In this document: positions 14,010 through 30,806 of the stretch, piece by piece | Position numbering within the stretch: the stretch's first letter is position 1 | Layout: the number at the start of each line of letters is the position of its first letter | From: Actinomycetes bacterium | GTDB taxonomy: Bacteria; Actinomycetota; Actinomycetes; S36-B12 | DNA: 37,197 nt | NCBI GenBank assembly: GCA_014190275.1 | Contig: BJGE01000014.1 | Location: forward strand, 1 to 37,197 | Direction: 5' to 3' | Program-made: the position numbers and the translations under genes | The notes under the pieces: generated by a model | The model's input: the letters and a program-made list of their open reading frames with translations, nothing else | The model's database searches: none | What the model was told of the DNA's origin: nothing

Positions 14010-16004
14010 GTGAGTCCACGCAGCTTGGCCGATGCCCTCCGGCAGCGCGATGACTCAGCCCTCGCCGCCCTGTTGCACCGGCGCCCCGATCTGCTGCATC
14101 CGATCCCCTCCGATATCACCAATCTGGCGGCCCGATCCACCACCGGTCCCAGCGTTTCCCGCTGTCTTGACACCCTCGATGCCTTAACCCTCTTCGTCTT
14201 AGCGGTGGTTGCGAGGCAGTCGGTCGAGCTGCCCGCACTGCCCAAGGAAGTCATCCGCAGCGTTATCGAGGACTTGGATGACTCGGCCCGCGACCTCGCC
14301 GAGAGGGCCCTGCAAGACCTGGTTGAACTGGCCCTGGTTTGGGGTACCGATGATGAGATTCGCGCCATCCATGCGGTGCGCGAGCACATCTTGGGCGCAA
14401 CCGCACCAACTTGGCCGCCGCCGCAGTTGCCGACCACCACCGAAAGTGCCAATACCGCGATCAGTGACGAGCAGGCCGGGGTGCACGCCCGCGAGGCGAT
14501 TGCGCAGGTACGCGACCTACTTGATGCCTGGGCCGTCGACCCACCGAGTGTCTTACGAGCGGGTGGTCTAGCCGTGCGGGATTTTGCCGCCGCCGCACGT
14601 GACCTAAACACAGATGCACCAACGGCCGCACTCTGGATCGAGATCGCACACGCGGCCGGGTTACTCGATGATGACGGCGAAGAACGCCCATCGTGGGTGC
14701 CAACAGATCGGTTTGACACTTGGCTGGGCAAACCAGCGGCCGAGCAATGGGTGGCCCTGGCTCAAGCGTGGCTCACCTCGCCGCGCCTTTCGAGTCTGGC
14801 TAATGACAAGTCGACCTTGCTAGCTACCGACTCCGAGCGCAGGGCGGTTGTCACCCTACGCGCCCAGGCACTCAAACTGCTGGCGTCAACCACCGACCCG
14901 GTCGAGCCCACCGCCTTGATCGAGGTGCTCAATTACGCGCAACCGCGACGAAGTGGTGCTCTGCAAGCCCAGGTGGTGCACGCGACTTATCGCGAAGCCA
15001 CCTTGCTTGGATTGATGGGAGCAAATGCATTGACCAGCCCGGGGCGTGCCCTGATTGGGGCCGCACCGACAAGCAGCACTGCCGCTGGTGCCGATGCAAT
15101 CGGTGCACTGATGCCACTCGAGATTGATCATGTGCTCATTCAAGCGGATCTCACCATGATCGCCCCCGGCCCGGTAGCCCCGGAACTGGCGCGCAAATTG
15201 CGGTTGCTCGCCGATGTTGAATCCCGCGGCCATGCCACCGTCTATCGACTTTCTGAGCAATCCCTTCGGCGCGCATTCGATGCCGGGTGGGACGCCGCGA
15301 AAGTGCACCAGGTGCTAAATAGCGCTTCGACAACCGGGCTGCCGCAGCCCCTTAGTTACCTGATCGACGATTTAGCCCGTCGCCACGGCGCCATCCGGGT
15401 TGGTGCCGCCTCGGCATATCTAAGGTGCGATAACGAGGGCACGATTCAAGCAATCCTCGGCGATCGCCGACTACGCGGCCTTCAACTTTCACAGACCGCG
15501 CCCAATATCTTGATCAGCCAGGCCACCCCGCATGAGTTCATGGCAGCACTGCGCGATGCTGGCTACGCGCCGGCTGCCGAAACTCCCGATGGCGCGGTGG
15601 TGGTGTTGCGCCCGGATGAACGCCGAGTGCGCTCAAAGTTGGCGCGCAAGGTCACTTCGGGTCGCCGCGATAGCGATGCACTGATCGCCAGTGTGGTCAA
15701 GGGTTTGCGCTCAGGTGACCGCGCAGCACGTACACCCCGCGGTGAGATGGTGGTCGGGCCCGCCGGCACGAACGAGGTCCCGCGCACGAGCAGTGCCGCA
15801 ACCCTTGCCGCCCTTAAGGTTGCGATCGCCGAGACCACCCCGGTCTGGATTGGCTACGCCGACGCCGATGGCACCACCACCGAGCAGATCATCGACCCGA
15901 TCCGCATGGGTGGTGGATCGGTCACCGCATTTGACCACCGCACCGAGCAGGTCCGAACTTTCTCTATTTCGCGAATCAGCGGGGTCGCGCCCCTTGCTAC
16001 CTGA
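14010..16004 (+). CDS. XPB-associated helicase C-terminal-domain/WYL protein
   Basis: A 664-residue protein resembling the mycobacterial protein encoded beside the XPB helicase (Rv0862c-like). The N-terminal third is helical (SLADALRQRDDSALAALLHR and onward). A middle-to-late section starting near LEIDHVLIQADLTMIAPGPV and running to about NILISQATPHEF matches the Helicase_C_3 (XPB-binding type) domain. The C-terminus, PVWIGYADADGTTTEQIIDP then RTFSISRISGV, looks like a WYL domain, a ligand- or nucleic-acid-sensing fold. It has no Walker motifs, so it is not a helicase. The usual direct neighbour XPB lies 3 kb away, beyond the racemase-GNAT-M20 group. Its stop overlaps the convergent racemase gene by 8 nt. 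Confidence 0.82.
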   Translation: MSPRSLADALRQRDDSALAALLHRRPDLLHPIPSDITNLAARSTTGPSVSRCLDTLDALTLFVLAVVARQSVELPALPKEVIRSVIEDLDDSARDLAERALQDLVELALVWGTDDEIRAIHAVREHILGATAPTWPPPQLPTTTESANTAISDEQAGVHAREAIAQVRDLLDAWAVDPPSVLRAGGLAVRDFAAAARDLNTDAPTAALWIEIAHAAGLLDDDGEERPSWVPTDRFDTWLGKPAAEQWVALAQAWLTSPRLSSLANDKSTLLATDSERRAVVTLRAQALKLLASTTDPVEPTALIEVLNYAQPRRSGALQAQVVHATYREATLLGLMGANALTSPGRALIGAAPTSSTAAGADAIGALMPLEIDHVLIQADLTMIAPGPVAPELARKLRLLADVESRGHATVYRLSEQSLRRAFDAGWDAAKVHQVLNSASTTGLPQPLSYLIDDLARRHGAIRVGAASAYLRCDNEGTIQAILGDRRLRGLQLSQTAPNILISQATPHEFMAALRDAGYAPAAETPDGAVVVLRPDERRVRSKLARKVTSGRRDSDALIASVVKGLRSGDRAARTPRGEMVVGPAGTNEVPRTSSAATLAALKVAIAETTPVWIGYADADGTTTEQIIDPIRMGGGSVTAFDHRTEQVRTFSISRISGVAPLAT

Positions 16005-17115
16005 CTCGGAGATCTCTGGTCCAGATTCGAAAATCTGCCAGTAACTCTGGGATCGGCTCCACCCCGATCCCCGGGCCCGCCGGCACCGGCAGCCGGCCGT
16101 TTTGGAGCACGAATGGCTCGGTGATGTCGACCGCGTAGTACCGGTTGGACGCACTGGTGTCACCCGGCAGGGTGAAGTTCGGCAGGGCGGCGAGCGCTAG
16201 GTTCGCGGCCCGGCCGATCCCGGTCTCGAGCATGCCCCCGCACCACACCGGTGAGTTGCGCTCTTGGCACATGTCGTGGATATCGCGGGCGGTTAGGTAG
16301 CTGCCAACGCGGCCCGGTTTGATGTTGATGATGGTCGCCGATCCAAATTCCAGCGCCGCCTCCGCCGAGGCCACCGACAAAATGGACTCGTCCATGCAAA
16401 TCGGTGTCGAGCAACTATCGGCAAGCATCCGGTGCCCGAGCCAGTCTTCTTCCGGCAGCGGCTGCTCGATGAGCAATAGACCGAACTCGTCAAGTTTCGC
16501 CAAATGGGCCGCATCAGCACGCGCATAGGCCTGGTTCGCGTCGACCTGCAGTGGCATTTCGGGCCACTGCGCACGTACCGCAGCAACCGGCTCCAGATCC
16601 CAGCCCGGTTCGATCTTCAACTTGATCCGGCGGTAGCCGGCATCCACGTAGACGCCGACTTCATCCAACAACTCACGCAAAGTCTCAGTCGTTGGGATGC
16701 CAACACTTACTCCGCAGTCAACTTCGGTTCGGGTCGATCCCAGGAAGCTCGCCATTGATTGATTTCGCTCCCGCAACCAGACATCGAGCATCGAAGTCGC
16801 GATCGCGGTCTTAGCCATCGGATGACCGCGGATCACGTCAAGTGCCGCCCGTACTTCCTCGGGCTCTGCGGCCATTGTCGTTTCGCGTAATGCCGGGATC
16901 AGGTGATCGGTCATTACGCCGATGACCCCTGCGGTGTATTCCGAGCTGTACCCGGGCCAGGAGGAGGCAGCGCATTCGGCCCAGCCGCTGGTGCCGCTGC
17001 TTGAGATCGCCTCGACAATCAAGACCTCGCGTACCGTGTCAGTGCCAAAGCTCGTGCGGAACGGGCGAACTAACGGCATCTTCACCAGATGCAGGCGAAA
17101 CAACTCAATGCTCAT
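15997..17115 (-). CDS. menC: o-Succinylbenzoate synthase / N-acylamino acid racemase family enzyme
   Basis: A 372-residue enolase-superfamily enzyme of the OSBS/NSAR group. The catalytic set is intact: KLK (Lys165 and Lys167), metal ligands Asp192 (VDANQAY), Glu217 (IEQPL) and Asp242 (MDES), and the opposite-face Lys266 (NIKPGR). WCGGMLETGIGRAANLAL is the family's C-terminal block. Members either make o-succinylbenzoate for menaquinone or racemise N-succinylamino acids, and many do both. No men genes are present. A GNAT gene overlaps it by 4 nt and a divergent M20 peptidase follows, so N-acylamino acid racemase is the likelier role here. The symbol is family-level only. Confidence 0.85.
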   Translation of the reverse strand: MSIELFRLHLVKMPLVRPFRTSFGTDTVREVLIVEAISSSGTSGWAECAASSWPGYSSEYTAGVIGVMTDHLIPALRETTMAAEPEEVRAALDVIRGHPMAKTAIATSMLDVWLRERNQSMASFLGSTRTEVDCGVSVGIPTTETLRELLDEVGVYVDAGYRRIKLKIEPGWDLEPVAAVRAQWPEMPLQVDANQAYARADAAHLAKLDEFGLLLIEQPLPEEDWLGHRMLADSCSTPICMDESILSVASAEAALEFGSATIINIKPGRVGSYLTARDIHDMCQERNSPVWCGGMLETGIGRAANLALAALPNFTLPGDTSASNRYYAVDITEPFVLQNGRLPVPAGPGIGVEPIPELLADFRIWTRDLRVR

Positions 17116-17915
17116 ACGCGCTCCCGATACAGGACGTAATTGCCGGCCAATTCAACCCCGATAATGCAATAGCCTTCGGCCAACGCAGTGGTCAAAGTCT
17201 CGCGAAGGCAGAGCCGCCATCGCCGTGCCGCCTCCGGATCAACTCCCCGCAATTCGACAATATCCTGCGGGATCTCTACCACGCGGATATCTCGTCCCGC
17301 CTCAATTAGCATCGCGGCGTCCAGCGGTAGCAGTCGACCCGCGACCGCGTCAGCAACCTTGGCCGATGACAGGTGCCACCACGCGAATACCCGGTCGGTG
17401 GGATCACCAACATTGATAGCGTCTGGCATCTGCCCGTAGAAATCGATTTCATATCCTTTGACATCAACGCCGAGTTTGAGAATGTTCAAGACGGCATTGC
17501 GCCTAACGAGCGGGTCGAAAGTCCACGAGATCGTTTCGATTCCACGTTCTAGTGCCCACATTCTTTGATGTAGTTTCAACGCCGTACCAATATGGCGGTT
17601 GCGATGGCTTTCGAGCACCGCCGCCATATGCGAATGCAGGTGCACCTGCCACCCATCGTCTAGGTGTCGGCCGATTACCGCTAGGGCCGCCCCCACTGGT
17701 TCACCACCTTTATATACAGCGGCGCAGTACCCACCGGCGTGGATCAACGCGGTCAGCAGATTCTGCTGGACCTGCGTGCCCTCACCGGGCCAGACCGTAT
17801 CGAAAATTCGCCGCGCGGTAGCCAAGTCAGTAGGGTCTACTACTGGACGGACTTCCACGCCTGCGCGCTCCTGCGCGCGCCGGAGATCGGCCGCCGGACT
17901 GTCCGCCAAAGTCAC
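17112..17915 (-). CDS. GNAT-superfamily N-acyltransferase (COG3375-like)
   Basis: A 267-residue acyl-CoA-dependent transferase. The region HSHMAAVLESHRNRHIGTAL (about 94-113) contains the acyl-CoA pyrophosphate-binding R-x-x-x-I-G-T/A motif of GNAT enzymes. GIETISWTFDPLVRRNAVLN then KLGV is the block I associate with the COG3375 branch. The gene ends in a 4-nt ATGA overlap with the racemase, so the two are co-translated. In the known pathway this type N-succinylates D-amino acids. The start is uncertain: GTG 17915 has a TACGGT box 7 nt upstream, while GTG 17924 adds three residues. Confidence 0.75.
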   Translation of the reverse strand: MTLADSPAADLRRAQERAGVEVRPVVDPTDLATARRIFDTVWPGEGTQVQQNLLTALIHAGGYCAAVYKGGEPVGAALAVIGRHLDDGWQVHLHSHMAAVLESHRNRHIGTALKLHQRMWALERGIETISWTFDPLVRRNAVLNILKLGVDVKGYEIDFYGQMPDAINVGDPTDRVFAWWHLSSAKVADAVAGRLLPLDAAMLIEAGRDIRVVEIPQDIVELRGVDPEAARRWRLCLRETLTTALAEGYCIIGVELAGNYVLYRERV

Positions 17916-17922
17916 ACATACC

Positions 17923-17928
17923 ACCGTA
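17923..17928 (-). promoter_or_regulatory. Predicted -10 box for the leaderless GNAT-racemase operon
   Basis: TACGGT on the minus strand is followed by GGTATGT and GTG 17915, the 7-nt leaderless spacing. The M20 gene diverges from the same 27-nt spacer, so the two transcription units are adjacent and could share control. Confidence 0.45.
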
Positions 17929-17942
17929 CCGAAAGGAGCAGC

Positions 17943-19079
17943 GTGCCCCAGGGCCTGGCATCGGCAACGGCACTACTGCCCCGCATGATCGAAGCGGTGC
18001 AACTCCTAGTCAACACCGAATCACCAACCCACGACCTCGCTGCCTGCGCGGGCATTGCGGAAATCGCCGCTGAACTCACAGGTGATTGGCTCCAGAGCCC
18101 TGCCCGCATCGAAGTCCATGATGGCTGCCCGGTTGTGCGCTGGGGCCCCGACCACCCAAGGGTCCTGCTGCTTGGTCATCTCGACACCGTGTGGCCCGTT
18201 GGCACGTTAACTCGCCTACCTGCGCAACTAAGTGATGACCAGCAAACGGGCCCGGGTGTCTTTGACATGAAAGCTGGCATCGTGCAGGCCTTGTCCGCGG
18301 TTGCCTTGCTTATCGCTGACGGCACCGACGTCTCAGCCGTCGGCCTGCTGCTGACCACCGATGAGGAGACGGGGTCGCGGGCATCGCGCGGAGTGATCGC
18401 AGCAGCCAGCACCAACGCAAAAGCGGTTCTGGTGTTTGAGCCATCCGCAGGTGGCGCCCTTAAGACCGAGCGCAAGGGCACCTCTTGGTACCGAATCAAG
18501 TTCCACGGGCGAGCCGCCCACGCCGGCCTTGACCCCGAACGAGGGGTTAATGCCACCGTTGAAGCCGCCGCATTCGTCATGGCAACCCAAGCTTGGGGTG
18601 ATCAAGTGGCCGGCACCACCGTTACGCCAACCCTGCTGCACTCCGGCACCACGGCAAATACCGTGCCGGTCTTAGCGGAGTTAACCCTTGACGTCCGGGC
18701 GTGGTCTGCTGCCGAGCAGCAACGAGTCGATGCATTTGTTAGAGCGTGGCGGGTAAGCCACCTCGAGGCGCGCATCGAGATCGACGGTGGGATTGACCGA
18801 CCACCCCTTGAGTTGTCTGCATCCGCTGGCCTATTTGCACTAGCGAAAGAAGTGGCACAAGATCTCGGTCTGCCCGAACTGAAGTCATGCGCGGTCGGTG
18901 GCGCCAGCGATGGCAACCTCACCGCCGCCGCAGGCGTCGCCACCCTTGATGGCCTCGGCGCAGTCGGCGATGGCGCCCACGCGGATCATGAATGGGCTTC
19001 GGCCCTCGCCATGGTCGAGCGGGCTGCCTTAACGGCCGGAATTATTAAAGCCACACTTGATGGAGAGGTAAATGACTGA
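17943..19079 (+). CDS. M20-family metallopeptidase/deacylase (ArgE/CPG2-like)
   Basis: A 378-residue zinc hydrolase. Metal and catalytic residues are visible: GHLDTV (His79, Asp81), GVFDMKAG (bridging Asp108), TDEETGS (catalytic Glu141 and ligand Glu142), FEPS (Glu166) and GDGAHADHEWA near the C-terminus (a ligand His). The dimerisation domain includes GRAAHAGLDPERG. AAAGGAG (17932-17938) precedes GTG 17943, which gives the start; the open frame extends further but antisense to the GNAT gene. The family removes acyl or peptide groups from amino acids. Next to the racemase and GNAT it is the likely N-acyl-L-amino acid deacylase. It overlaps XPB by 8 nt. Confidence 0.85.
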   Translation: MPQGLASATALLPRMIEAVQLLVNTESPTHDLAACAGIAEIAAELTGDWLQSPARIEVHDGCPVVRWGPDHPRVLLLGHLDTVWPVGTLTRLPAQLSDDQQTGPGVFDMKAGIVQALSAVALLIADGTDVSAVGLLLTTDEETGSRASRGVIAAASTNAKAVLVFEPSAGGALKTERKGTSWYRIKFHGRAAHAGLDPERGVNATVEAAAFVMATQAWGDQVAGTTVTPTLLHSGTTANTVPVLAELTLDVRAWSAAEQQRVDAFVRAWRVSHLEARIEIDGGIDRPPLELSASAGLFALAKEVAQDLGLPELKSCAVGGASDGNLTAAAGVATLDGLGAVGDGAHADHEWASALAMVERAALTAGIIKATLDGEVND

Positions 19080-25541: not shown

Positions 25542-26948
25542 TCAGCTGTTGAAGCCAACCCCGAAGTGATCCAAGGTCCGAAGCCATACCCCGCGTTTGC
25601 CCGTGCGGTCCTCGCGTGCCAAGGCCGCCCGGGTGAATTGCACCGTCGGATACCTAAGCGGCTCCGGCGGAAATCGCATCGGTTGCTTTCGCACCAGGCC
25701 AAGGCGGGTGCGCTCGGTGTCTTGGCCCCCCAGGAGGTCTAGGGCTGTCAGCGCACCGAACCGAGAGGCCGCAACCCCCAAGCCGGTGTAGCCAACCGAG
25801 TAGGCCATGCGCCCATCCAGTGCGGTGCCGATCAACGGCGTGAACCTGGAAGTCGAATCGATTAGGCCGGCCCAGCGGTGGGTGAAGCGCAATCCTCGTA
25901 ACTGCGGAAACGTGTCAAAGAATTGCCTGGCGAGGAGTTGATGCGATCGATCACGTTGTTCACGTGCCGCGTCAGTCCTATTGCCGAAGTAATAGACCGC
26001 GTCGTATCCACCCCAGAGAATCCGGTCATCGGGGGTGCGCCGATAGTAGTGAAACTGATTACCCGAATCCGTCATGCCCTGATTCTCGAGCCAGCCGATA
26101 TCAGCGAGCTGGGTCGCGCTTAGCGGTTCGGTGACCAATACGTGATCGTAAATCGGTAGCACCCATGAGCGCAGGCGTTTGAGGAGTGGTGGGTACGCAT
26201 TGGTGGCGAGGAGCACCCTCCTGGCCCGGACCGCCCCGAGTGCGGTCCTGATTGCCACCCCCGCCCCTGACATCTTGATGCCGGTGACTTCGGTGCCCTC
26301 GTGAATGCGCACCCCTCGAATCAGTGCCGCGCGCTTGAGTCCCCAACACAGCAGCGCGGGATCAAGGAGCCCGCTACCGGTTCGCAGTCGCATTCCAGCA
26401 AGGTAAGTGGGTGAATTGACGTCGGCGCGCACTTGCTCGCCACTAAGAAACTCCGCGTCCTCACCAAATTGTTTATGCAATTCAACCGATGCGCGCAATT
26501 GCTCCACCTGGTGGGGCCGTACCGCCACCGCTGTCTTGCCGCAGATGCGCAGCCCGGCATCAATGCCCTCCGCCGCCACGAATTCCGCTATCTCGGCTAG
26601 GTTCTCCCGGCCCATCCGCAGCAGCGTCGACATTTCATCCGGCCACATTGCTATGCCGTGCGCAATGCCGTGGGTTAGTGACTCCGAGATGAATCCGCCA
26701 TTGCGACCGGATGCGCCAAAAGCGATGGACTTAGCCTCCAGCAGCACCACGCTGGATTCCGGGTTTGCCTCACGCGCCGAAATGGCCGCCCACAAACCGG
26801 TCAGGCCACCGCCGACAATCACCAAATCCGCGTTGACCTGCCCACTAAGTGGTGAGCAACTCGCCGGATGGTCATCTCGATCAATCCAAAAGGGGCGGGG
26901 GGTTGCATCCCGCAGCGCGTCATTAGCGGTGGCCGTCAAGATACTCAT
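25542..26948 (-). CDS. FAD-dependent amine oxidase (PuuB/OrdL-like)
   Basis: A 468-residue DAO-family flavoprotein. NADLVIVGGGLTGLWAAISA (around 38-57) is the FAD-binding GxGxxG motif. FGASGRNGGFISE is the typical gamma-glutamylputrescine oxidase / OrdL signature, and AYSVGYTGLGVAASRFGALT is the C-terminal FAD block. The family oxidises putrescine derivatives or secondary amines. It is the last gene of the pot operon, with its ATG in a 4-nt overlap with the ATPase stop, so it probably degrades the imported polyamine. No gamma-glutamylputrescine synthetase is adjacent. I chose ATG 26948 for that overlap; the frame is open 11 codons further. Confidence 0.83.
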   Translation of the reverse strand: MSILTATANDALRDATPRPFWIDRDDHPASCSPLSGQVNADLVIVGGGLTGLWAAISAREANPESSVVLLEAKSIAFGASGRNGGFISESLTHGIAHGIAMWPDEMSTLLRMGRENLAEIAEFVAAEGIDAGLRICGKTAVAVRPHQVEQLRASVELHKQFGEDAEFLSGEQVRADVNSPTYLAGMRLRTGSGLLDPALLCWGLKRAALIRGVRIHEGTEVTGIKMSGAGVAIRTALGAVRARRVLLATNAYPPLLKRLRSWVLPIYDHVLVTEPLSATQLADIGWLENQGMTDSGNQFHYYRRTPDDRILWGGYDAVYYFGNRTDAAREQRDRSHQLLARQFFDTFPQLRGLRFTHRWAGLIDSTSRFTPLIGTALDGRMAYSVGYTGLGVAASRFGALTALDLLGGQDTERTRLGLVRKQPMRFPPEPLRYPTVQFTRAALAREDRTGKRGVWLRTLDHFGVGFNS

Positions 26949-27991
26949 CTCTCTAGCACCACTGCCTTGTCCGCGGGCCATGAAAGCCTCACTGACGCCC
27001 CGCGTTCCACATTCGCGGCACCTTGACAGGTCAAGACCACGGGCGCACCGTGGCCGGCAACCTGCACCGCGATGGTTGATGCACCACCGAAGAACTGGGT
27101 TTCCAGCACGGTGCCGGTGAGGAGTCCGCCGTCATCAACTATCCGTACGTCTTCGGGTCTCACCATTAAGTACGCGGCACCAGCTACCGCCGGCGTTGGA
27201 TCTTGCGCTGGGAGAAAACCGATATTCGTGACGTCAACCCCACCCGGTGCCGCAACGCCCTCGAACATGTTGCTGGTGCCGATGAAGTCGGCGACGAAAA
27301 CATTGGCAGGCCGCTGATACATCCCCACCGGGGTATCTACCTGCTGCACCCGGCCAAGTGACATGACGGCTATCCGGTCGGCCATCGACATCGCTTCTTC
27401 CTGGTCGTGCGTGACAACAACGAACGTAATACCCACCTCATGTTGCAGCCGCTTGAGTTCAAGTTGCATTTCGGCACGCACCTTGCGGTCAAGGGCTGAT
27501 AGCGGCTCGTCAAGGAGCAATAATCGTGGCCGCTTGATGATCGCGCGGGCGAGTGCCACCCGCTGCCGTTGCCCGCCTGATAATTGGGCGGGCCGGGTGC
27601 GGGCCTTATCGCGCAACCCGACAGTTTCAAGGACTTCACCGACACGCGCGCGGATCTCGTCCTTCGGAAGTTTCTCCCGCTCCAATCCGTAGGCGATATT
27701 TCGCTCAACCGACATATGTGGGAAGAGGGCATAGGACTGGAACATCAAGTTGATCGGTCGCTTATGCGGGGGTAGCGAAAGCAGGTTGCTCCCGCCCAAC
27801 AGCACCGCACCTGAATCCGGCTCCTCGAAGCCTGCGACAACCCGCAGCAGGGTTGTCTTTCCGCAGCCGGACGGGCCAAGTAGCGCAAAGAACTCGTTCT
27901 CCTTGATTGAAATGCTCACCTCATCAAGGGCGACGACGTCCCCGTAACTCTTGCTGAGGCCGGAAATCTCCACCAGGTGTTTTTGTGTCAT
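26945..27991 (-). CDS. potA: Polyamine ABC importer, ATPase subunit
   Basis: A 348-residue ABC ATPase. Walker A GPSGCGKTT (39-47), Q-loop MFQSYALFPHMSV, signature LSGGQRQRVALARAI, Walker B LLLLDEPLSALD and H-loop VVTHDQEEAMSMADR are all intact. The C-terminal TOBE-like region (YLMVRPEDVRI) matches PotA/PotG-type ATPases. It powers the PotB-PotC channel at the inner face of the membrane. Its start overlaps the potC stop by 4 nt and its stop overlaps the amine oxidase start by 4 nt. Confidence 0.92.
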   Translation of the reverse strand: MTQKHLVEISGLSKSYGDVVALDEVSISIKENEFFALLGPSGCGKTTLLRVVAGFEEPDSGAVLLGGSNLLSLPPHKRPINLMFQSYALFPHMSVERNIAYGLEREKLPKDEIRARVGEVLETVGLRDKARTRPAQLSGGQRQRVALARAIIKRPRLLLLDEPLSALDRKVRAEMQLELKRLQHEVGITFVVVTHDQEEAMSMADRIAVMSLGRVQQVDTPVGMYQRPANVFVADFIGTSNMFEGVAAPGGVDVTNIGFLPAQDPTPAVAGAAYLMVRPEDVRIVDDGGLLTGTVLETQFFGGASTIAVQVAGHGAPVVLTCQGAANVERGASVRLSWPADKAVVLER

Positions 27992-28773
27992 ACGGCATCC
28001 GTCAGTCGGGTGATGCGCTGGGCAGCGATCACGACAGTGAAGCTAACTAGGAGCAGTAGCGCAGCCAGCGCGTTGATTTCCGGCGTCACGCCGAAGCGCA
28101 CCATCGAATAGATGACTATCGGCAGAGTCGGAGTCGCCGGTCCATCGGTGAAGAAGGCGATGACGAATTCATCAAGGGACAGGGTGAAAACCAATAGCGC
28201 CCCGGCCACTATCGCTGGCAGCAGCGTGGGCACGGTTATCTTGAAGAAGGTGGTAACCGCATTTGCCCCTAAATCACCCGAGGCCTCCTCCAAGCTCGGA
28301 TCATTTTGCCCTAGGCGTGCCGTCACCACGGCGGCTACGAATGCCATCCCGAAGACCACGTGCGCAAGAAGCACCGAATGCAACCCGAGGGTCATGCCAA
28401 TCGCACTGAAGAGCACGAGCAGCCCGATGGCAAGTGCGAGGTCGGGGATGATCGCCGGGGTTAGCGAGTAAGCCTCAAGGAGCGCCGAACGGGTGAACCG
28501 CGAGAGGCCGATAGCTAACAACGTCCCGAGGATGGTGGCTAAAATGGTGGCACCAACCGCCACGATTAACGTGTTTATCAAACCCTGCCGCACCGCGGTG
28601 TCCGACGCCAAGACGCCGTACCACCTGGTGCTGAACCCACCCCACGAAAATGGCTGTTTACTCCCATTGAATGACATCACGACGACGACCACCAAAGGCA
28701 GGTACAAGAACACGAAAGTCAGCAGAAATGGCAGACGCAGCCAGCCGAGATTACGCACGGGCGCCACGCCCAT
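27988..28773 (-). CDS. potC: Polyamine ABC importer, permease subunit PotC
   Basis: A 261-residue permease with six hydrophobic segments. The cytoplasmic coupling motif reads EEASGDLGANAVTTFFKITV, the EAA-loop form of PotC/PotI. SLDEFVIAFFTDGPATPTLP is typical of the C subunit. The start is uncertain: ATG 28773 overlaps potB by 23 nt, and in-frame GTG codons follow shortly, one giving an 8-nt overlap. Confidence 0.9.
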   Translation of the reverse strand: MGVAPVRNLGWLRLPFLLTFVFLYLPLVVVVVMSFNGSKQPFSWGGFSTRWYGVLASDTAVRQGLINTLIVAVGATILATILGTLLAIGLSRFTRSALLEAYSLTPAIIPDLALAIGLLVLFSAIGMTLGLHSVLLAHVVFGMAFVAAVVTARLGQNDPSLEEASGDLGANAVTTFFKITVPTLLPAIVAGALLVFTLSLDEFVIAFFTDGPATPTLPIVIYSMVRFGVTPEINALAALLLLVSFTVVIAAQRITRLTDAV

Positions 28774-29653
28774 TAATTCGGCGCGCCACCATCGCCTGAA
28801 CCGCGAATAACCCAGCGAGGAATAGCACCATCACCAACGCGAGAACTGCGCCAAATGGCCAGTCGCGCGCTTTTAGGAATTGATCCCGGATCAGGTTCCC
28901 GACCATCACCGTCTTACCGCCCCCGAGTAACTCCGGCACGATGAAATTCCCCAGGCTCGGCACGAATACGAAAATCGCCCCGATCATCGTGCCCGGCAGG
29001 GTCAGCGGCAACGTGACGGTGACGAAACTCCGGAACTTACTGGCACCTAGATTCGTGGCTGCTTCCAGCAGTGAGCGGTCCAGGCGTTCGATTGACGCAT
29101 ATACCGGCAAGATCATCAATGGCAAATACGCGTACAGCAGGCCCGCGATAACCGCACCTCGGGTGTAGAGCATTTCCAGGGGTTCAGCAATCAAGCCCAA
29201 GCTTTCCAATGTCTTATTGACCGGACCCTGCGAATTCAAGAGCACGATCCAGGCATAAGTGCGGATCAAGAAGTTGGTCCAAAATGGCAGCACGACGAGA
29301 ACAAGTGCAACCGTGCGCCACCTGGCAGGGAGTTTGGTAATGGCGTACGCCGTCGGGTAGCCGATCAGTAGCGCCAGCAGGGTCGTAACCGAGGCGATGA
29401 AGATCGAATTCCACAGCACTCGAAGGTAAATGGGGTCAAGGGCTCGTGCGAAGTTTTCCAAGGTGACCGGGAACTCGACCCCGCCGAATCGGCCACGGGT
29501 CAAGAAAGCGTATGAAACGACCAGCAGGATTGGGATGGTCATGAATGCTGTCACGTAGAGCAGCCCGGGACCAAGAAACACCGTACGCGCCCCAAGGGCG
29601 CGGCGCTTGGTTGCGCCGCGCCCTTGGGCGACAGTGGAAGCCATCGAACTCAC
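28751..29653 (-). CDS. potB: Polyamine ABC importer, permease subunit PotB
   Basis: A 300-residue permease with six membrane segments. EAATNLGASKFRSFVTVTLP is the EAA coupling loop. LPFWTNFLIRTYAWIVLLNS and VPSLGNFIVPELLGGGKT are diagnostic of PotB. The GTG at 29651-29653 follows potD by 3 nt; ATG at the fourth codon is an alternative. Confidence 0.9.
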   Translation of the reverse strand: MSSMASTVAQGRGATKRRALGARTVFLGPGLLYVTAFMTIPILLVVSYAFLTRGRFGGVEFPVTLENFARALDPIYLRVLWNSIFIASVTTLLALLIGYPTAYAITKLPARWRTVALVLVVLPFWTNFLIRTYAWIVLLNSQGPVNKTLESLGLIAEPLEMLYTRGAVIAGLLYAYLPLMILPVYASIERLDRSLLEAATNLGASKFRSFVTVTLPLTLPGTMIGAIFVFVPSLGNFIVPELLGGGKTVMVGNLIRDQFLKARDWPFGAVLALVMVLFLAGLFAVQAMVARRINGRGARA

Positions 29654-29656
29654 TAA

Positions 29657-30766
29657 CTAGTTAGAGGTGACCTCGGTGGCGATTTTCGTGTACTTCGAAT
29701 TATCGACTCCGACATCGACAACGACTTCCTCCTTGAGTAGGTCTGCCGCTGACATCCCCATATTCGGGTAGGCCGCAGCCAAGGCTGCCCCAACCTGATC
29801 CATTGCGGCCTTGTTAGGCACCTTGTAGAGGATGTTCTCGGCAACCCAGGCATGGTTCGCCGGGTCGAGGATGAAGTTGATGAAGGCATGTGCCGCCTCC
29901 TTGTTTTTCGACGTCTTCAAGATCACCATGGTGTCCGACCAAAGGTCACTGCCCTCCTTCGGCACCACGAACTTGATGTTCGGGTCTTCGGCGATGCCGT
30001 AGTTGCACCAGCCATCCCAGGCCACCGACATGACCGCCTCACCCGAAACCAGCCGGGAGAAGTAAGTGGTGTCGTCATAGGCCAACAGATTTGGCTTCGC
30101 CGCAATCAGCAGATCCTTCGCCTCTTGGAGTTGCGCATCGTCGGTGGTGTTAATCGAGTAGCCCAAGGACTTCAAGGCCGGCAGCAAGAGCCAGCGCTCA
30201 GTGGCAAGCGCCGTGATCTTGCCCTTGGTCTCATCCGACGGCTTTAAGATGTCATTCCAGCTGTCAGGTGCCTTGCTCACCAAATCGCTGCGGTAGCAGA
30301 TGCCTGTCGTGCCCCAGGTGTAGGGAACCGAGAAGACATTGCCCTTATCGAAAGCCAGTTGCGTTGCCTCCGGCGACAAGTTCTTCATGTTCGCGATCAA
30401 ATCGGGCTGAATCGGCTCAAGTAGCCCGGCGTCGTTTAACGCCTGGGCGTATTGGCCCGAGACAAATGCCACGTCAATACCTGAATCACCACCTGCCGTC
30501 AGCTTGCCCATGATCTCTTCGTTGGTCGCGTGGTTGGCGATCGTCAATGGTGCACCAACGGCCCCTTGGAACTTGGCCGGGAGATCCTCTGGGTAATAGC
30601 CAGCCCAGTTCGAGACCGTAAGGCTCTGCTTGGTGAGGTCAGCATTTGGATCCAGTGCGGCGGGCGCACTGCTGCTGCCACCACATGCCGCCAGCAGCAG
30701 GGCCGCGCTGGCCGCGACTGCCCCAACAGCACCCATCCTGCCCATCCTTTTTGCACTTTCTCGCAT
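29657..30766 (-). CDS. potD: Polyamine-binding lipoprotein (PotD/PotF-like)
   Basis: A 369-residue solute-binding lipoprotein. The signal ends in lipobox LLAAC (Cys near residue 28), followed by a GGSSSAPAA linker. LTVSNWAGYYPEDLPAKFQ is the typical PotD/PotF opening. NHATNEEIMGKL, VPYTWGTTGICYRSD and SVAWDGWCNYGIA line the expected polyamine pocket with Trp and acidic residues. It delivers substrate to PotBC. I chose ATG 30766 because AGGAG sits 7 nt upstream; the upstream GTG at 30787 would add seven residues. Confidence 0.9.
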   Translation of the reverse strand: MRESAKRMGRMGAVGAVAASAALLLAACGGSSSAPAALDPNADLTKQSLTVSNWAGYYPEDLPAKFQGAVGAPLTIANHATNEEIMGKLTAGGDSGIDVAFVSGQYAQALNDAGLLEPIQPDLIANMKNLSPEATQLAFDKGNVFSVPYTWGTTGICYRSDLVSKAPDSWNDILKPSDETKGKITALATERWLLLPALKSLGYSINTTDDAQLQEAKDLLIAAKPNLLAYDDTTYFSRLVSGEAVMSVAWDGWCNYGIAEDPNIKFVVPKEGSDLWSDTMVILKTSKNKEAAHAFINFILDPANHAWVAENILYKVPNKAAMDQVGAALAAAYPNMGMSAADLLKEEVVVDVGVDNSKYTKIATEVTSN

Positions 30767-30806
30767 TTGCTGGCTCCTATCCGGCACACCGGGCGCCGAC
30801 TTTGTA

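Follow-up and report, generated by a model that had tools for sequence, protein, structure and literature searches.

A candidate D- to L-amino acid conversion cluster (N-acylamino acid racemase, GNAT and M20 hydrolase) in an actinobacterium

The window—the whole stretch of 37,197 nucleotides that was analysed, from an Actinomycetes bacterium (contig BJGE01000014.1)—contains a compact group of three genes, for a predicted racemase, an acyltransferase, and a metallohydrolase. The features are as follows:

15997..17115, minus strand: N-succinylamino acid racemase (NSAR)/OSBS-family enzyme of the enolase superfamily, 372 aa, by match to TIGR01928 and to the Amycolatopsis NSAR
17112..17115, minus strand: translational overlap of the GNAT stop and the racemase start, 4 nt, ATGA, read from the sequence
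17112..17924, minus strand: GNAT acyltransferase, 270 aa, by match to Pfam Acetyltransf_1
17925..17942, no strand: short spacer separating the divergent starts of the GNAT and M20 genes, read from the sequence
17943..19079, plus strand: M20-family metallohydrolase, 378 aa from a GTG at 17943, by match to Pfam Peptidase_M20 and M20_dimer

An earlier, sequence-only reading had placed the three genes exactly here, and the 4-nt overlap that it described between GNAT and racemase is exact. The M20 gene was said to be divergent and 27 nt away; the divergence holds, and the distance depends on the start chosen—counted from the likely GTG start at 17943, the first GNAT start (17924) is 18 nt away, while 27 nt is a valid choice because an alternative GNAT GTG is present at 17915. 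The M20 gene and the beginning of an XPB-type helicase gene share 8 nt, and a convergent gene for a Helicase_C_3/WYL protein overlaps the 3' end of the racemase gene, also by 8 nt. Comparison with six relatives gives dN/dS values of 0.04-0.25 for the three genes; each is thus held by purifying selection and is not a chance open frame.

The racemase scores 310.7 bits against TIGR01928 (cut-off 200.65), and its closest solved relatives are the Amycolatopsis NSAR (PDB 1sja; also 4a6g) and variants of it (E 1.5e-128), with 59% identity over 351 aa. The full catalytic set is common to both enzymes, in agreement with the sequence-only reading. In the alignment, lysines K165/K167 and K266 correspond to Amycolatopsis K161/K163 and K263, and metal ligands D192, E217, and D242 correspond to D189, E214, and D239. 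R269 is the equivalent of Amycolatopsis Arg266, which we take to be a residue tied to racemase activity and specificity; this equivalent is found in 130 of the 131 racemase family members collected. The two enzymes differ at position 323, where the window protein has Tyr for Phe, and at position 50, where it has Ser for Met. Characterised NSAR relatives, including those of Amycolatopsis and Geobacillus, racemise N-succinyl amino acids (PMC8142540), and by its sequence the window enzyme would have this activity as well. One genome (G004) carries a divergent enolase-superfamily gene at the XPB/helicase site (L063 5056-6135; G004:C6:20949-22037), 36% identical and with no GNAT; it has neither of the KxK lysines and no Arg266 equivalent, and is therefore unlikely to be an NSAR.

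Bifunctionality with o-succinylbenzoate synthase (OSBS) is common among NSAR-family enzymes, so the racemase sequence taken by itself is compatible with activity in menaquinone synthesis. We searched the source genome (2.25 Mb, 96.8% complete) one protein family at a time. On contig 8, a 340-aa protein scores above the cut-off of NF002782, the model for actinobacterial o-succinylbenzoate synthases (336.8 vs 288 bits); its gene, menC, lies between menB and menD, both above their cut-offs, and is flanked by UbiA (menA), AMP-binding (menE), and chorismate-binding (menF) genes, together with a methyltransferase that by the look of its sequence resembles MenG. The window racemase is therefore an additional member of the family, encoded away from the men cluster. 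The sequence-only reading had argued against a purely menaquinone role and had suggested looking for another menC and a men pathway; both are on contig 8. This full cluster with its own menC rules out the candidate role of dedicated MenC, and likewise that of sole menC, which that reading had named as fatal to its proposal. A second MenB-like protein is found elsewhere in the genome (G000:C65:7134-7901; 317 bits, under the 342.7 cut-off). According to a review, the Amycolatopsis enzyme was later given OSBS as its physiological role (PMC4215206); here, the presence of a dedicated menC on contig 8 speaks against such a role.

In the profile search, no curated NCBIfam model names the GNAT. Its predicted structure (AlphaFold, pLDDT 93.3) is closest over residues 23-187 to N-alpha-acetyltransferases (Z 16.0, rmsd 2.0 over 150 residues), with residues ~190-270 barely covered; this likeness fits an enzyme that acylates alpha-amino groups. 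The structure search returned no D-amino acid N-succinyltransferase among the matches listed, and a sequence-profile search against solved structures gave weak GNAT-domain matches and none of the protein's own family. The GNAT is homologous to GNATs that adjoin "menC" genes in Bacilli and Deinococcus; tblastn aligns 86-90% of its length with those of Lysinibacillus and Priestia at 27.9-29.2% identity (E 2e-24 to 2e-26). A mixed-phylum alignment of the GNATs gave no conserved stretch, and the genome scan was built on an actinobacterial alignment.

The M20 protein is well predicted (AlphaFold, pLDDT 95.4), and its model best matches carboxypeptidase G2 (CPG2; PDB 1cg2) with Z 43.5 and rmsd 2.6 over 370 residues; the next protein scores 35.8. 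The two share the fold and the M20 metal-site motifs, with 27% identity, and the metal ligands and catalytic Glu (H79, D108, E141, E142, E166, H346) are invariant in 30 aligned sequences. The window protein is under every curated NCBIfam cut-off listed. It was rejected as a CPG2/PRK06133 member, since it scores 186.2 bits against a cut-off of 349 and the fold alone matches. It was likewise rejected as a TIGR01891 amidohydrolase/aminoacylase of the Bacilli type, with 34.5 bits (cut-off 153.75) against 269 for the Lysinibacillus M20 and 263 for that of Priestia, and a BLAST alignment with the former of 68 residues. CPG2 frees an L-amino acid from an N-acyl group, which makes a deacylase role for the window M20 chemically reasonable, judging by the modelled fold; the context in the window is amino acid racemisation, not folate.

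Conservation of the neighbourhood, a check put forward by the sequence-only reading, was examined in 119 genomes of the order Ca. Nanopelagicales. There are 62 racemase and 63 GNAT matches, which coincide in 61 genomes (counts uncorrected for shared ancestry), and the two genes are nearly always adjacent. The exceptions are the G004 enolase described above, and two genomes (G080, G081) in which the GNAT is accompanied by a racemase fragment or by a racemase at a contig edge. When loci were gathered with the GNAT as the sole query, 76 of 80 had the racemase directly downstream and 47 carried an M20 of the window type. These contigs come from metagenome assemblies, most of them labelled Actinomycetota or Candidatus Nanopelagicales and many from lakes; one record was deposited as acI. 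Several of the assemblies (L111, L114, L126, L128, L129, L170) are titled, for instance, "Bifidobacterium breve" or "Streptomyces griseus", yet have loci like those of Nanopelagicales; the labels look wrong. In genus g25 (L194, L195; G021, G036), GNAT and M20 are at the XPB/helicase site and the racemase is on another contig—one such off-site racemase (L055 3394-4524) lies near a phage integrase. The surroundings also point to amino acids in another lineage (L180 3724-8260), where genes for a Glu/Leu-type amino acid dehydrogenase and for a PLP-dependent enzyme of the PALP family flank the pair. A literature search found no paper joining Nanopelagicales with D-amino acids.

The racemase-GNAT pair is also present on plasmids of distant taxa: Streptomyces, Nonomuraea, Arthrobacter, Deinococcus, Sulfitobacter, Pseudosulfitobacter, Priestia, and Lysinibacillus. 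In 11 of 13 plasmid loci the two genes lie side by side or almost so, and this repeated pairing in distant phyla is strong evidence of a shared function. Neighbouring genes encode amino acid or oligopeptide/peptide ABC transporters, beta-lactamase-fold serine hydrolases, and M20 hydrolases; amino acid or peptide transporters adjoin the pair in Sulfitobacter and Deinococcus. Three M20 subfamilies accompany the pair according to taxon. The CPG2-like type is found in Actinomycetota (beside the pair in the window, Streptomyces, and Nonomuraea, and a few kb from it in Arthrobacter), the TIGR01891 amidohydrolases in Lysinibacillus and Priestia, and a PRK06446-like protein in D. ficus. On Streptomyces plasmids (NZ_CP107961.1, NZ_CP108083.1), an M20-GNAT-"menC" cluster comprises the same three families as the window, with identities of ~50% for the M20, 57-58% for the racemase, and ~40% for the GNAT; unlike in the window, all three genes run in one direction, and beta-lactamase-fold serine hydrolases and an amidohydrolase are nearby. 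The Sulfitobacter mediterraneus pair (L096, NZ_CP068999.1), together with an amino acid ABC transporter, is on a plasmid typed as conjugative, which is a possible route of horizontal spread.

Taken as a whole, the cluster likely carries out an irreversible conversion of D- to L-amino acids by N-acylation, racemisation, and deacylation. This model is based on gene identity, active sites, linkage, the separate men cluster, purifying selection, and predicted folds. In the first step, the GNAT would move an acyl group, most likely succinyl from succinyl-CoA, onto the alpha-amino group of a D-amino acid. The racemase would then interconvert the N-acyl-D- and N-acyl-L-amino acids by means of two lysines and a divalent metal. 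Finally, the M20 hydrolase, which may be specific for the N-acyl-L form, would cleave the N-acyl-L-amino acid and so pull the sequence towards L-amino acid and succinate. The substrate range would be broad, probably of hydrophobic D-amino acids, and the purpose may be salvage of D-amino acids from the environment. The D-to-L route as first proposed is well supported in its core, through the sequences, active sites, separate men cluster, and conservation of the pair; the M20 part fares less well, being of another subfamily and not always present.

The M20 is indeed the loosest of the three. In most of family f1, and in one genus of f6, it adjoins the pair. No M20 lies next to the pair in genus g4, in the majority of f6 genomes, or in most of family f7, there in those genomes that have retained the pair. 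It also stands alone at the XPB/helicase site in three genomes (G069, G097, G035; L191 1566-2663, L192 5766-6863, L193 5316-6386) that give no GNAT or racemase match, which suggests either loss of the pair or an independent role for the M20. Given these absences and lone occurrences, the M20 is not an obligate partner of the pair. Where it is missing, the neighbours of the pair that were tested as a possible alternative deacylase include no M20; they are DUF3145, a methyltransferase, PAP2, a zinc alcohol dehydrogenase, a Glu/Leu dehydrogenase, a PLP enzyme, and LysE. In two genomes (G105:C53:84889-85971, G072:C48:13508-14593) the M20 match crosses one in-frame stop (TGA and TAG, respectively); these may be pseudogenes or sequencing errors, or the alignment may run beyond the end of the gene.

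These patterns bear on an alternative in which GNAT and racemase form the functional unit, the M20 shares the locus as an unrelated enzyme (a CPG2-like peptidase or a hydrolase of N-acyl amino acids), and deacylation falls to another enzyme, such as a general deacylase. The many genomes with the pair and without a window-type M20, the three with the M20 alone, its divergent, non-operonic position, and the two further M20 proteins in the source genome all speak for it. However, the same M20 subfamily is in line with the pair on the Streptomyces and Nonomuraea plasmids at ~50% identity, and M20 presence correlates with that of the GNAT (34/37, uncorrected for shared ancestry); we consider this alternative unlikely.

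It is also possible to keep the enzymes and change their role—detoxification, action on N-acetyl rather than N-succinyl substrates, or use of scavenged N-acyl amino acids. The acyl donor of the GNAT is unreadable from its sequence, and characterised members of the racemase family take N-acetyl-methionine too (PMC8142540). In the same table, however, the kcat/Km of characterised relatives is higher on N-succinyl substrates (PMC8142540), and the transporters beside the pair in Sulfitobacter and Deinococcus also weigh against such a role, which we find rather improbable. That the racemase serves menaquinone synthesis as an additional or reserve o-succinylbenzoate synthase, with incidental neighbours, is very improbable: the name of TIGR01928 (o-succinylbenzoate synthase), the menC labels given in public records to the neighbours of such GNATs, and the OSBS role assigned to the Amycolatopsis enzyme (PMC4215206) can be cited for it, but contig 8 already provides a complete men cluster, menC included, the racemase accompanies the GNAT and not men genes across phyla, and it has the NSAR-linked Arg266 equivalent that is absent from the divergent G004 enolase.

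As for the source of D-amino acids in the preferred D- to L-conversion, peptidoglycan had been suggested as an example from the sequence; nothing in the window supports this. There is no cell-wall gene in the cluster, and although some plasmid loci have MurR/RpiR regulators and sugar genes nearby, these are not specific enough to count. Nor was any gene dedicated to D-amino acids, for example one for a D-aminopeptidase, recognised in the window. Further along, a DAO-family FAD oxidoreductase (25542-26981) is in an operon with a polyamine-type ABC transporter (25542-30787); as it overlaps that operon, more than 6 kb away, it was set aside as a D-amino acid oxidase of the pathway. The operon is probably devoted to polyamine catabolism, outside the D-to-L cluster.

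A D- to L-amino acid pathway of this kind is reportedly known from Geobacillus kaustophilus (Sakai et al. 2006), and is said to consist of a GNAT succinyltransferase, an NSAR/OSBS, and an M20 L-desuccinylase; the same three enzyme classes are clustered in the window. We compared the window with Bacilli stand-ins for Geobacillus. The racemase and GNAT on Lysinibacillus pMGMM7 are 44% and 28% identical to those of the window and are judged homologous, which bears out the likeness to Geobacillus drawn in the sequence-only reading for these two families. The likeness does not extend to the M20 subfamily—the window protein belongs to a carboxypeptidase-G2-like branch, whereas the stand-ins (Lysinibacillus, Priestia) have TIGR01891 amidohydrolases—and the window M20 is transcribed divergently, unlike in the Geobacillus kaustophilus arrangement.

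The kind of pathway is already known; what is added here is its conservation across Nanopelagicales and the CPG2-like M20 in Actinomycetota. D-amino acids persist in the pool of dissolved organic nitrogen. We tentatively suggest that in the actinobacterial pathway a CPG2-like M20 may have replaced the aminoacylase-type deacylase, and that the pathway may have been kept across freshwater Nanopelagicales for the use of dissolved D-amino acids, with small-genome lineages keeping the pair, mostly without the M20. Enzymes of the racemase family are routinely annotated as menC; a GNAT neighbour together with a second menC elsewhere in the genome is an easy marker by which N-acyl amino acid racemases can be told apart from genuine enzymes of menaquinone synthesis. 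If the proposal is true, the use of D-amino acids would be predictable for many uncultured lake bacteria of the order.
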